Shown here in pieces: positions 7,509 to 10,566 of a DNA stretch of 64,000 nt. The DNA comes from Hydrogenophilales bacterium 16-64-40 (GTDB taxonomy: Bacteria > Pseudomonadota > Gammaproteobacteria > Burkholderiales > Thiobacillaceae), in the NCBI GenBank assembly GCA_002256995.1, contig NCGX01000003.1:209839-273838 (forward strand). The letters run 5' to 3'. The notes under the pieces were generated by a model. That model ran no database searches. It was not told where the DNA came from and worked only from the letters and a program-made list of their open reading frames with translations. Each line of letters starts with the position of its first letter. Position 1 is the first letter of the stretch. Position numbers and translations under genes: made by a program.

Positions 7509-8270
7509 ATGTCTGACCACACACCGAACACTCAAGACACCCCGCCCGAGGTTTTGCAAGACGATTCGATCGATCATTCCCGCCGCAAGCTGACCGGCGC
7601 CGCGCTCGGCGTATCGGCGGTTTTCACGCTGGCCAGCCGCCCGGTCTGGGCCAACCAGTGCAGCATTTCAGGCATGGCTTCCGGCAACCTCTCCCAACCG
7701 CAAGAAACCTGCGAAGGCTGCACCCCCGGATACTGGAGAGAGTGCCAGCACTTTGACTCATGGTCCGGCTTCCAGACGACCGACACCTTTAACAGCGTTT
7801 TCGGCGTCAGCGAGTACGTGGATTGCAAAAAAGTACCCTATACCTTGCTGGATGTCATGTACCTGAATGGCGGCAGCTATGTCTGCGGCCTTGAATCCAC
7901 AGACACTGTCAGTTTCCTTACCACAGGACAGGGCAACAGCAACAGCAACAGCAACAGCAACAGCAACAGCAACAGCAACAGCAACAGCAACAGCAACAGC
8001 AATAACAATAACCAGGACGCCCATCCGGATGGCGCTCCCGACACTTGCACGACGGGTACTGCTTTCGGCGACCTGGGCGGCGACCCCATCTCCCCGAACC
8101 TGGGCTTTCATGCAGTCGCCGCCTTGCTCAATGCTGCGCATAGTGGTGTTAACTACGGCTACACGCCTGGCGAAATCCTAGATTTGTTCAAGAACAACTA
8201 CAAGACCAATTCAGAGGCGTTGAAGAACTCGCTTACCCTGCTGAATGAGCGCGTCTGCCCGCTGAACTGA
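7509..8270 (+). CDS. Secreted/Tat-like protein with (Asn-Ser)11 repeat, putative partner of the HprK-related system
   Basis: 253 residues. Residues about 24-47 form a Tat-like signal (S-R-R-K-L-T-G, then a hydrophobic stretch ending V-W-A). The exported part holds a cysteine-containing motif E-G-C-T-P-G-Y-W-R-E-C near residue 75, then an exact (NS)11 linker from a hexanucleotide repeat at 7935-8000, then a C-terminal helical part. Motifs of the type C-T-P-G-Y-W-K are known in secreted proteins of unknown function. The gene lies 4 bp before the PqqD-like gene and on the same strand, so it may be the substrate or partner of the following PqqD-like protein, kinase and nucleotidyltransferase; this is inferred from position only. 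Confidence 0.78.
   Translation: MSDHTPNTQDTPPEVLQDDSIDHSRRKLTGAALGVSAVFTLASRPVWANQCSISGMASGNLSQPQETCEGCTPGYWRECQHFDSWSGFQTTDTFNSVFGVSEYVDCKKVPYTLLDVMYLNGGSYVCGLESTDTVSFLTTGQGNSNSNSNSNSNSNSNSNSNSNSNNNNQDAHPDGAPDTCTTGTAFGDLGGDPISPNLGFHAVAALLNAAHSGVNYGYTPGEILDLFKNNYKTNSEALKNSLTLLNERVCPLN
7935..8000 (+). repeat. In-frame hexanucleotide repeat (AACAGC)11
   Basis: Eleven perfect copies of AACAGC in phase with the reading frame, each encoding Asn-Ser, followed by AAT/AAC codons that extend an Asn run. A change in copy number would add or remove residue pairs without breaking the frame. Confidence 0.95.
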
Positions 8271-8274
8271 TGCG

Positions 8275-8547
8275 ATGACGCGTGTTTTGCCGCTCCCGAC
8301 ACGTCTGTTGAAAAACTGGGGGGACGAAGCGGTCGTCTACGATGCAGCGTCGGGCGACACCCACTACTTGAAGCCGTTGACCCTAGCGTTGTATCAGATC
8401 TGTCGTGACCATCCCGGCTACACCTCGACCGAGATCGCCGCCGAACTGTCCACCCGCCTTAGCGAGGCGAATACGCCGCAACTGCGCGAACTGACTGAAG
8501 AGACGCTCACCAGTCTACGCAAAATCAGCCTGCTGGAACCCGCATGA
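8275..8547 (+). CDS. PqqD-like protein of an HprK-related (HPr-rel-A type) system
   Basis: 90 residues with the PqqD-type fold signature: an N-terminal W-G-D-E-A-V-V-Y-D segment, then a hydrophobic L-A-L-Y-Q-I-C segment and helices. PqqD-family proteins bind precursor peptides and deliver them to modifying enzymes (RRE domains). This one is a stand-alone RRE-like protein, 4 bp after the secreted protein gene and overlapping the kinase gene by 4 bp (ATGA at 8544). I recall the set being named the HPr-rel-A system in protein family models; no function is established to my knowledge. Confidence 0.82.
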   Translation: MTRVLPLPTRLLKNWGDEAVVYDAASGDTHYLKPLTLALYQICRDHPGYTSTEIAAELSTRLSEANTPQLRELTEETLTSLRKISLLEPA

Positions 8548-9464
8548 AACTGCTGCAACTGCCTCGCCCCGAGTTGCGGCGCCAACTGGCTGGCGCCGGC
8601 ATCTGGCTGCGAACCGGGCCATTTTCGCTCAGACTGCGATCGCGCTTCCCCGCCGTGGCAGAAGGTCTGGCTGAACTTTACGGCCAGTTCGAAGTGCGCA
8701 ACGCCCACGAGGCCTTTACCGACTTCCACGTGTCGGTGAACCCGCCTGCCACCCTGCGCCGCTGGCTGCGTCCCCAGGCTGCGTTTTCGTTCGACGGCAT
8801 GCAGCCTTTCAAGCCGCTGCCGCGCGACCAGGCGTTTCCGATGCTGGAATGGGGGCTCAACTGGTGCGTGTCGACGCAAGCACATCAGTACCTGATCATC
8901 CACGCGGCCGTGGTCGAAAAGAATGGCCTGGCAGCGATCCTGCCGGCGCCGCCCGGTTCCGGCAAAAGCACGCTGGCGGCCGGGCTGGTGTTGTCTGGCT
9001 GGCGCCTGCTGTCGGACGAACTCACCCTGATCGACCGCAAGACCGGCCTGATCCAACCGCTGCCACGGCCCGTCAGCCTGAAGAACAAGTCGATCGACGT
9101 CATTCGCCAGTTTGCCCCGGACGTCCACATCAACCGCGCCTCGCACGACACCGTCAAGGGCACGGTGGCGCATATGCGGCCGCCCCGCGACAGCGTGCGG
9201 CGCCAACATGAAACAGCGCGCCCCGGCTGGGTAATTTTCCCCAAGTGGGAAGCCGGCGCGGCGGCCACCCTGACCCCCCGTTCGCGGGCGCAGACCTTCA
9301 TGTTCCTGGCACAAAATGCATTCAACTACAGCCATCTCGGGGCGGATGGCTTCCGGGTCGGCACCACGCTGATTGACCAGGCGGACTGTTACGATTTCCA
9401 CTACAGCGCACTGGACGAGGCCATTGCCACGTTCGATCGTCTGGCCGAGCACCGCACGTCCTGA
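8544..9464 (+). CDS. HprK-related kinase A
   Basis: 306 residues. A Walker A motif G138-S-G-K-S-T and a following L-L-S-D-E segment match the P-loop kinase fold of HPr kinase/phosphorylase. The usual HPr-binding N-terminal domain of HprK is absent and no HPr or PTS gene is near, so the substrate is not expected to be HPr. In lasso-peptide clusters HprK-like kinases phosphorylate the precursor's C-terminal serine and sit beside a nucleotidyltransferase gene; the same pairing here suggests modification of a protein or peptide. Overlaps the PqqD-like gene by 4 bp and is followed after 4 bp by the nucleotidyltransferase. Confidence 0.85.
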   Translation: MKLLQLPRPELRRQLAGAGIWLRTGPFSLRLRSRFPAVAEGLAELYGQFEVRNAHEAFTDFHVSVNPPATLRRWLRPQAAFSFDGMQPFKPLPRDQAFPMLEWGLNWCVSTQAHQYLIIHAAVVEKNGLAAILPAPPGSGKSTLAAGLVLSGWRLLSDELTLIDRKTGLIQPLPRPVSLKNKSIDVIRQFAPDVHINRASHDTVKGTVAHMRPPRDSVRRQHETARPGWVIFPKWEAGAAATLTPRSRAQTFMFLAQNAFNYSHLGADGFRVGTTLIDQADCYDFHYSALDEAIATFDRLAEHRTS

Positions 9465-9468
9465 AGCC

Positions 9469-10566
9469 ATGAAGCCCCTATCCCGCAACCTGCTTTCCCG
9501 CACCCTGCGTTCGCCCGATATCGCCGCCCAGTTTTCCATGAGCGAATGGGACATGCTGGTACGCCAGGCCCGGGCGGCGGGACTGCTGGCCCGTCTGGCG
9601 CACCGCTTTTGTCAGCACGGGCTGACGGCTGCCATCCCGGCGGTGGCGCGCTGGCATTTCGACGCCGCCGAGACGCTGGCCGACAAGCAGCAAACGGCCG
9701 TGCGCTGGGAACTGCAACAGCTTCGCGCCGCGCTGGTCGATCTCGGCAGTCCGCTGATCGTGCTCAAGGGGGCGGCCTATGTCGCCGCCAACCTGCCTGC
9801 CGCGGCGGGGCGGCTGTTCAACGACATCGACATCCTCGTGCCGCGCGAGCGGCTGAAGCAGGCCGAATCCTCGCTCATGCTGGCGGGCTGGCATGCCACC
9901 GGCCTGTCGGAATACGACAAGCGTTACTACCGCCGCTGGATGCACGAGATTCCCCCGATGCAGCACGTCCAGCGCGCCACCGTGATCGACGTGCATCACG
10001 CGATCCTGCCCGACACCGCGCGCTACCACCCGGATTCCGCCAAGTTGCGCAGCCGCGCCGTCGCGGTGGAAGGTCTGCCCGGCATCCATGTTCTGGCGGC
10101 GGAAGACCGCATCCTGCACTCGGCCACGCATTTGTTCCACGACGGCGAACTGCCGCACGGCCTGCGCGACCTGACCGACCTCGACCTGCTGCTGCGCGAC
10201 GCCGCGCTCGATCACCATTTCTGGCCGCGCCTGACCGCGCGCGCCGACGAACTGCAACTGAGCCGCTCGCTGTTCTATGCCCTGCGTTATCTGCGCCATT
10301 TCCTCGATACACCGGTTCCCGACGACGTCACGGCCACCCTCGACGCCGCCGCCCCCAATCGAGTCACCCTCGCGCTGATGGACCGCATCTTCAGCCGCGT
10401 GCTCGCCCCCGATCATGCGAGCTGTGCGGACAGTTTCACCCCGGCTGCACGCCTGGCCGCCTTCGTGCGCGCTCACTGGTTGCGCATGCCCGCGCATCTG
10501 CTGATCCCGCATCTGTTTCACAAGGCTTTCGTCAGCCCCTATCAACGCACGCCCAAACCGGCTTGA
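9469..10566 (+). CDS. Nucleotidyltransferase-fold protein of the HprK-related system
   Basis: 365 residues. About residues 85-125 contain V-L-K-G-A-A-Y followed by F-N-D-I-D-I-L-V, the paired-aspartate motif of the uncharacterised nucleotidyltransferase family NTP_transf_5 (DNA polymerase beta-like fold). A second half of about 200 helical residues follows. It may transfer a nucleotide or phosphate group onto the product of the kinase upstream, as proposed for the kinase/nucleotidyltransferase pair of lasso peptides. The stop codon overlaps the -35 element of the grxD promoter, so the cluster ends here. Confidence 0.82.
   Translation: MKPLSRNLLSRTLRSPDIAAQFSMSEWDMLVRQARAAGLLARLAHRFCQHGLTAAIPAVARWHFDAAETLADKQQTAVRWELQQLRAALVDLGSPLIVLKGAAYVAANLPAAAGRLFNDIDILVPRERLKQAESSLMLAGWHATGLSEYDKRYYRRWMHEIPPMQHVQRATVIDVHHAILPDTARYHPDSAKLRSRAVAVEGLPGIHVLAAEDRILHSATHLFHDGELPHGLRDLTDLDLLLRDAALDHHFWPRLTARADELQLSRSLFYALRYLRHFLDTPVPDDVTATLDAAAPNRVTLALMDRIFSRVLAPDHASCADSFTPAARLAAFVRAHWLRMPAHLLIPHLFHKAFVSPYQRTPKPA

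Follow-up and report, generated by a model that had tools for sequence, protein, structure and literature searches.

An exported protein with two invariant serines accompanies the HprK-related kinase cassette of a Hydrogenophilales bacterium

Introduction

A kinase related to HPr kinase, encoded beside a PqqD-like protein, a nucleotidyltransferase and an exported protein, raises the question of what these enzymes act upon. This arrangement is found at positions 7509-10566 of the stretch of DNA analysed here (64,000 nucleotides, referred to below as the window), which was taken from Hydrogenophilales bacterium 16-64-40 (GenBank assembly GCA_002256995.1, contig NCGX01000003.1). The enzymes are those of what NCBI names the HPr-rel-A system. 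They are catalogued yet unexplained: no dedicated paper on this system or on HprK-related kinase A, and no stated function, was found in the literature searched, a search whose coverage excludes most subscription papers. The original prediction for this locus suggested that the enzymes phosphorylate and/or nucleotidylate the secreted protein or a linked peptide. In the present analysis, the genomic linkage of the exported protein with the enzymes strongly suggests that it is the fourth member of the cassette and its likely substrate. Beyond the original prediction, we report a specific conserved leader, two invariant serines and a link to exosortase and exopolysaccharide (EPS) systems. The chemistry that we propose on this basis is a hypothesis.

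Results

The exported protein is linked to the enzymes

The cassette consists of four genes on the + strand, which are separated in succession by a 4-bp gap, a 4-bp overlap (ATGA) and another 4-bp gap. In the list below, Tat stands for twin-arginine translocation and RRE for the recognition element of ribosomally synthesised and post-translationally modified peptides (RiPPs).

7509..8270, + strand: exported protein of 253 aa and putative substrate of the modification, bearing a Tat-type signal and a CTPGYW-type domain; below cut-off for every Pfam and NCBIfam family
8275..8547, + strand: PqqD/RRE-like protein, 90 aa, TIGR04353; 4-bp gap after the exported-protein gene
8544..9464, + strand: HprK-related kinase A, 306 aa, TIGR04352; 4-bp overlap (ATGA) with the PqqD-like gene; H120, K141 (P-loop), D158 and E159 conserved
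9469..10566, + strand: NTP_transf_5 nucleotidyltransferase, 365 aa, PF14907; counted from ATG, 4-bp gap after the kinase gene

Tight spacing had been described for three genes at this locus; it was confirmed, and its extent is larger, with all four genes in the run. An alternative TTG start of the nucleotidyltransferase gene at 9373, taken from the list of open reading frames (ORFs), would produce a 92 bp overlap with the kinase gene. The four-gene run is not a product of chance, because it has been kept across many genera.

Two collections of relatives were inspected. The first comprised 80 named loci, the nearest of them mostly from Thiobacillus, which the window's genome resembles; they are the top 80 among at least 570 relatives and hence skewed to near ones. 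The second was a phylum sample of 398 genomes, 61 of which had the kinase over cut-off; the surroundings were taken for the 60 loci other than that of the window. At 78 of the 80 named loci there was a homologue of the exported protein, encoded on the strand of the enzyme genes and placed ahead of them, among them or behind them. The two named loci without it were also without a detected PqqD-like gene, and at one of the two, L147, the contig has only 176 bases before the kinase. In the phylum sample, a hidden Markov model (HMM) of the exported protein matched at 43 of the 60 loci, while a Tat-signal scan combined with reading added nine more, giving 52/60. Many of the distant HMM matches are due to nothing but the leader, and their scores can be as low as 17 bits. 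The Tat-signal scan was a loose one, which came back empty at 33 of 140 loci, many of them with a true leader, and made false calls elsewhere, and it was used only for these nine loci after reading. At two further loci of the phylum sample (L199 and L219), the contig breaks off on the side where the exported protein is expected.

The distribution of the leader was followed with a profile of 28 residues, which was built from 64 proteins and run over 117 genomes of the family. It matched in 79 of the 83 kinase-positive genomes versus 1 of the 34 others. A match is built in for those cassettes from which the profile was derived, but the absence of the leader elsewhere is not. In the lone leader-positive genome among the others, a kinase gene adjoining the leader is truncated by the end of the contig. 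Almost all leader matches (81/85) lay no more than 5 kb from a kinase. Since the linkage at the named loci, the linkage in the phylum sample and the distribution of the leader agree, the exported protein belongs with the enzyme trio. The expectation that a neighbourhood comparison would find the trio mostly together with the secreted-protein gene was thus borne out.

The other two members are less constant in the phylum sample: the PqqD-like gene was found at 78/80 named loci and 47/60 phylum-sample loci, and a gene of the NTP_transf_5 type at 80/80 and 48/60, respectively. One family within the class of the window (L200, L202, L204, L206 and L207) has a small, hardly recognisable ORF at the position of the PqqD-like gene.

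Unusual arrangements were also seen. In a Thiobacillus metagenome-assembled genome, two tandem kinase/nucleotidyltransferase sets have a single exported-protein gene between them (L045:6740-11835, on a contig shared with L103). At L159:9071-10597, two divergent leader-bearing exported proteins stand in tandem next to one enzyme set. At L176:5630-7571, the genes for the leader protein and the PqqD-like protein are divergent from the kinase gene, and the nucleotidyltransferase was not detected.

The leader and two serines are conserved in an otherwise divergent protein

The conserved N-terminal features of the exported protein are the following:

7578..7652, + strand: Tat-type signal and conserved leader (residues 24-48, SRRKLTGAALGVSAVFTLASRPVWA); cleavage by signal peptidase predicted, by eye, after A48
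7668..7670, + strand: Ser54, invariant first Ser of SxxxS; candidate phosphorylation site, 56/56 and 80/80
7680..7682, + strand: Ser58, invariant second Ser of SxxxS; candidate phosphorylation site, 56/56 and 80/80

In an alignment of 56 exported proteins, whose mean column identity was 19%, R25, R26, S54 and S58 were the sole invariant columns. This alignment held the window's protein and 55 of 69 non-redundant exported proteins, the other 14 being omitted by judgement as divergent or carrying long inserts; two loci, L086 (split gene) and L088 (Ns), had been dropped beforehand. The same four residues, and no others, were invariant in a larger alignment of 80 proteins, which comprised the window's protein and all 79 homologues of the named loci that bear the RR pair, one RR-less fragment of a split gene having been dropped. 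An SxxxS motif followed the signal in 79/79 exported proteins, as compared with 13% of 611 control windows from the same proteins. Given the predicted cut after A48, S54 and S58 would become approximately residues 6 and 10 once the signal is removed.

The stretch from the RR pair to the cut site was the best conserved, with 2.54 bits per column versus 1.14 before the RR. For residues 50-72, 73-128 and 190-253 these values were 2.29, 1.56 and 1.79, respectively. When the leader profile was run over the own genome, it found one protein at E 6e-11, and the next match had E 1.2. The profile is therefore not a general detector of Tat signals. The genome encodes TatC (243.7 bits), and the twin Arg is present in 80/80 aligned exported proteins.

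In other branches, one of which was taken to be Alphaproteobacteria and several of which are draft-genome families, the leader type is kept while the mature domain is different. As a separate observation, the exported proteins at L208-L216, which are alphaproteobacterial by appearance, have 129-143 aa and a similar leader, followed by a mature part that is of another kind and itself highly conserved (in most of them CEIPVPDPGRAG...FTCFASLQMPRG).

The enzymes retain their catalytic residues

The kinase matched TIGR04352 (HprK_rel_A) with 410.5 bits (cut-off 200), the PqqD-like protein matched TIGR04353 (PqqD_rel_X) with 70.7 bits (cut-off 35), and the nucleotidyltransferase matched PF14907 (NTP_transf_5) with 197.9 bits (cut-off 31.2). 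With the model for true HPr kinase/phosphorylase, TIGR00679, the kinase scored 17.2 bits, far under the cut-off of 240; its profile did match HPr kinase structures (1jb1, E 3e-4). In the aligned rows, which contain same-genome duplicates from two collections, H120 and K141 of the kinase were each conserved in 189/190, D158 and E159 in 190/190, and K100, G101, D119, D121 (the D-x-D motif) and D174 of the nucleotidyltransferase were invariant in 163/163. A profile search of the PDB with the nucleotidyltransferase found no relatives.

The Pfam PqqD model did not match the PqqD-like protein. Its predicted order of elements is beta-beta-beta-alpha-alpha-alpha, which is the layout of an RRE, with a mean predicted local distance difference test score of 86.8, and its best profile match in the PDB was the lasso-peptide RRE TfuB1 (E 0.012).

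The cassette co-occurs with exosortase

Within the family, an exosortase over the TIGR02602 cut-off was present in 79/83 kinase-positive versus 9/34 other genomes (Fisher p 4e-14), and in the phylum sample in 30/61 kinase-positive versus 37/337 other genomes (Fisher p 7e-11); the genomes are related, and these p-values overstate their independence. XrtA-type genes flank the cassette at L164, L169 and L192 though the respective genomes have no TIGR02602 match, and the absence of a match may therefore reflect the model or the assembly in these cases.

Genes for EPS production adjoin the cassette in many relatives. Among 93 flanking ORFs from 30 loci, 11 encoded the TIGR03027 export protein, which is not an unbiased rate, as the 93 were hand-picked from 187 composition-filtered ORFs and several hemA/prfA/prmC-like loci were passed over. 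Lytic transglycosylase, serine protease and nucleotide-sugar enzymes were also frequent among these 93. A Pfam scan of 31 of the remaining flanking ORFs and one exported protein yielded polysaccharide export in 4/32, the scans together leaving aside 63 of the 187 composition-filtered ORFs. In the flanks of the phylum-sample loci, where 90 ORFs were scanned of 108 picked, the TIGR03108 amidotransferase was found 20 times and the TIGR03088 glycosyltransferase 19 times (E up to 1e-10). When eight XrtA-type matches were held against the curated cut-offs, TIGR03108 (3/3), TIGR03088 (3/3) and TIGR03027 (1/1) were over them, and the single TIGR03015 match (0/1) fell short with 324.0 versus 324.5.

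The mature domain, the Asn-Ser repeat and the setting in the window

Two further features of the exported protein lie downstream of the serines:

7719..7736, + strand: CTPGYW motif, residues 71-76; start of a confidently predicted, mainly helical domain
7933..8002, + strand: GCAACA tandem repeat encoding an Asn-Ser run; perfect 6-bp units, 11.7 copies, in frame; predicted disordered insert, not conserved

The exported protein combines the Tat-type signal (SRRKLTG...SRPVWA) with a CEGCTPGYW motif. It fell short of every curated cut-off of Pfam and NCBIfam, and its 56 aligned relatives had no family in common, single members showing one stray weak match each. A PDB profile search with the protein returned a single match at E 0.82, which we judged to be chance, its gene had no match in the plasmid collection, and a search of the own genome gave one match at E up to 0.1. 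The CTPGYWK motif was likewise not mentioned in the literature searched, within the coverage stated above. AlphaFold2 confidently predicted a mainly helical domain made up of residues 71-120 and 171-253. The Asn-Ser insert was modelled with low confidence, and S54 and S58 lie in a lower-confidence segment preceding the helical domain, a segment that, judging from the model, is probably flexible.

The original prediction had drawn attention to the Asn-Ser repeat, a role for which is not supported. As the modified region it was ruled out: the hexamer repeat falls in a variable, predicted-disordered insert, and the relatives shown have other inserts or none. The length of the GCAACA repeat (window 7933-8002) possibly varies from strain to strain. 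An identity as PEP-CTERM substrate was also ruled out, as the protein has no PEP-CTERM tail: it ends in ...NERVCPLN, and no PEP-CTERM model matched at E up to 1.

In the window, the cassette is surrounded by housekeeping genes, namely hemA, prfA and prmC upstream and grx4, ntrC, ntrB, an unassigned ORF of 156 aa and glnA downstream. Flanks with hemA, prfA and prmC like those of the window recur at other loci. This survey of the flanks took in nine ORFs, which lie between 3226 and 15567. A scan of the cassette interior for promoters and terminators gave no signal above shuffled expectation. At the end of the nucleotidyltransferase gene, ahead of the glutaredoxin gene, there is a near-consensus sigma-70-type promoter (11/12; window 10563-10590), with 0.6 such sites expected by chance in the stretch. 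Adjoining hemA, an Fe/2-oxoglutarate dioxygenase-like protein is encoded at window 3226-4119; the models for trimethyllysine and trimethylaminoethylphosphonate dioxygenase matched it below cut-off.

Discussion

Taken as a whole, the explanation that we favour, and consider rather probable, is that the four genes form one maturation-and-export unit. The 253-aa protein would carry a Tat-type signal which at the same time acts as a RiPP-style leader. Once the PqqD-like RRE has bound this leader and presents the protein, the HprK-related kinase would phosphorylate S54, S58 or both. The nucleotidyltransferase would then extend the phospho-serine, most likely with a hexose, as reported for PsmN, or with a nucleotide. 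The modified, folded protein would leave the cell via Tat, and upon removal of the signal an N-terminal phospho- or phosphosugar tag would stay on it outside the cell. There, the tagged protein may work with the exosortase/EPS system, perhaps as a matrix protein that is joined to polysaccharide. Phosphorylation at S54/S58 is the likeliest first step, and the addition of a phosphosugar or nucleotide as second step is less certain. A more far-reaching version, which we offer tentatively and hold to be possible rather than probable, is that the RRE reads the Tat signal as such, and that whole folded proteins with mature domains varying between lineages acquire phosphate and phospho-glycosyl groups at their new N-terminus ahead of export, to end up joined to exosortase-dependent EPS as its protein part.

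Besides the relatedness of the genomes behind the exosortase statistics, several observations weigh against the explanation that we favour. With regard to linkage, the leader protein could not be recognised at 6 of the 60 phylum-sample loci despite sufficient room (L178, L179, L185, L193, L203 and L218), and in five of these six the PqqD-like gene was also undetected; four kinase-positive genomes of the family had no leader match. The PqqD-like gene was undetected at 13/60 loci, two of them at contig ends. The nucleotidyltransferase was not found at 12/60 loci, and this step may therefore be dispensable, which makes the second chemical step less certain. Two of the twelve (L170 and L181) end at a contig edge on the relevant side, while at L176, L179, L184, L188, L189, L194, L195, L196, L198 and L199 the gene was unmatched in the stretch fetched and a contig end is not the plain reason. 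The best structural match of the PqqD-like protein, TfuB1, is marginal, and the matches that come next, at E 0.022, are designed helical proteins. The SxxxS motif holds in the CTPGYW-type branch and is not general in the others. There, a Ser is located near the first Cys in 51/52 proteins versus 73% of 271 other Cys, and a universal rule of a Ser next to the first Cys was dropped as evidence, as 73% of the control Cys satisfy it. As for the EPS link, 31 of the 61 kinase-bearing genomes of the phylum sample have no TIGR02602 match over cut-off, the exosortase of the own genome is encoded on another contig than the cassette, and the window's cassette is itself flanked by housekeeping genes, not EPS genes. 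Finally, LppN, the nucleotidyltransferase (NTP transferase) of the linear polyphosphorylated peptides discussed below, showed no detectable activity in a heterologous host (PMC13381572).

Of the alternatives, the attachment of a cofactor fares best, though we consider it unlikely. Here, the kinase and nucleotidyltransferase would build a phosphodiester-linked prosthetic group and attach it to Ser, and Tat would be needed since the protein folds round the group; the CitX/MdcG-type transferases of citrate and malonate lyase provide the model for such an attachment. The Tat-type signal together with a conserved mature domain in the window's branch, the invariant catalytic residues of the nucleotidyltransferase and the single dedicated target in the own genome are all in line with this idea. 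It fits poorly with the other branches, which keep the type of leader but have mature domains among which no similarity was detected, an odd finding for one fixed cofactor, and with the EPS/exosortase context.

Ranked after it, and also unlikely, is a role in export, whereby the PqqD-like protein would serve as a proofreading chaperone for the signal peptide, and the kinase and nucleotidyltransferase would act elsewhere, for instance on polysaccharide or PEP-CTERM proteins. That the leader is the conserved element and that EPS genes adjoin the cassette in many relatives would suit such a role, whereas it leaves the two serines unaccounted for, which are invariant in a protein that otherwise diverges and lie in a segment of probable flexibility. 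It is also at odds with the common distribution of kinase and leader and with the finding that, in the two described systems, sets of kinase, RRE and nucleotidyltransferase modify their own precursor. Very improbable is a signalling module in which the kinase acts like HPr kinase in carbon/nitrogen control within an incidental neighbourhood: the P-loop, the HPrK-like core and the ntrBC and glnA genes downstream in the window speak for it, and the 17.2 bits with the true HPr kinase model and the cohesion of the cassette across many different flanks against it.

HprK-related kinase A occurs in 61/398 sampled genomes of the phylum with a system function that the literature searched does not state, and the partner, leader and candidate serines described here make the cassette testable. 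If the maturation-and-export unit is real, RRE-guided kinase chemistry would extend from small peptides to Tat-exported proteins, and a set of enzymes would be at hand by which the proteins of exosortase/EPS systems might be tagged covalently.

Comparison with known systems

By all criteria applied, the cassette is an HPr-rel-A system: the kinase and the PqqD-like protein are well over their cut-offs, and the NTP_transf_5 gene lies 4 bp downstream. The nucleotidyltransferase was included as a criterion by ourselves, from the common gene content of the loci. The models of this system name enzymes only, to which the present analysis adds a leader-bearing exported partner, invariant serines and a common distribution; fuller NCBIfam notes on the cassette, under TIGR04352 and TIGR04353, are possible.

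With the XrtA/PEP-CTERM system, the cassette shares its co-occurrence with exosortase and, in many relatives, the adjoining genes for XrtA-type export, glycosyltransferase and amidotransferase. Unlike the substrates of that system, the exported protein has no PEP-CTERM tail. In a word search of the paper on XrtA/PEP-CTERM (PMC1569441), HPr, PqqD and nucleotidyltransferase were unmentioned.

The parallel with lasso peptides that had been drawn for the HprK-like kinase and the nucleotidyltransferase holds, and it is strengthened by a paper of 2026 on another family of RiPPs, to which we turn below. In pseudomycoidin, PsmK phosphorylates the C-terminal Ser, and PsmN is required for the presence of hexoses on the phosphate (PMC9266682). 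The cassette resembles the paeninodin and pseudomycoidin systems (PadeK, PsmK and PsmN) in pairing an HprK-like kinase with an enzyme of the nucleotidyltransferase type, which in lasso peptides acts after the kinase. It differs in that the candidate Ser is not C-terminal and the precursor is a protein rather than a short peptide. Membership among the lasso peptides was ruled out, as a scan of the cassette and of nine flanking ORFs revealed neither a macrolactam cyclase nor a B2 protease.

The closer parallel is with the linear polyphosphorylated peptides (LPPs), RiPPs of Bacillota described in 2026. Their kinase LppK phosphorylates S3 of the core of an RRE-assisted precursor and refuses Thr and Tyr, the precursors have a conserved N-terminus and a variable C-terminus, and gene clusters have been found inside polysaccharide loci (PMC13381572). 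The cassette has the same elements, namely a discrete RRE-like protein, an HprK-like kinase, an NTP transferase, a conserved leader and a variable mature part, with Ser near the mature start (here as candidate sites) and a polysaccharide context in many relatives. An archaeal-type (SipW-like) signal peptidase, an MsbA-like exporter and a leader of the YxxPxVLxHQxIxFETxxS type are found in LPP only. Neither the signal peptidase nor the exporter was encoded by the nine flanking ORFs of the window, the leader motif was absent from the window's precursor by reading, and LPP membership was ruled out on these grounds. The cassette, by contrast, has a Tat-type leader and a mostly folded mature protein of ~205 residues. 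By analogy, then, it may be regarded as a proteobacterial counterpart that would work like LPP without being a member of it.

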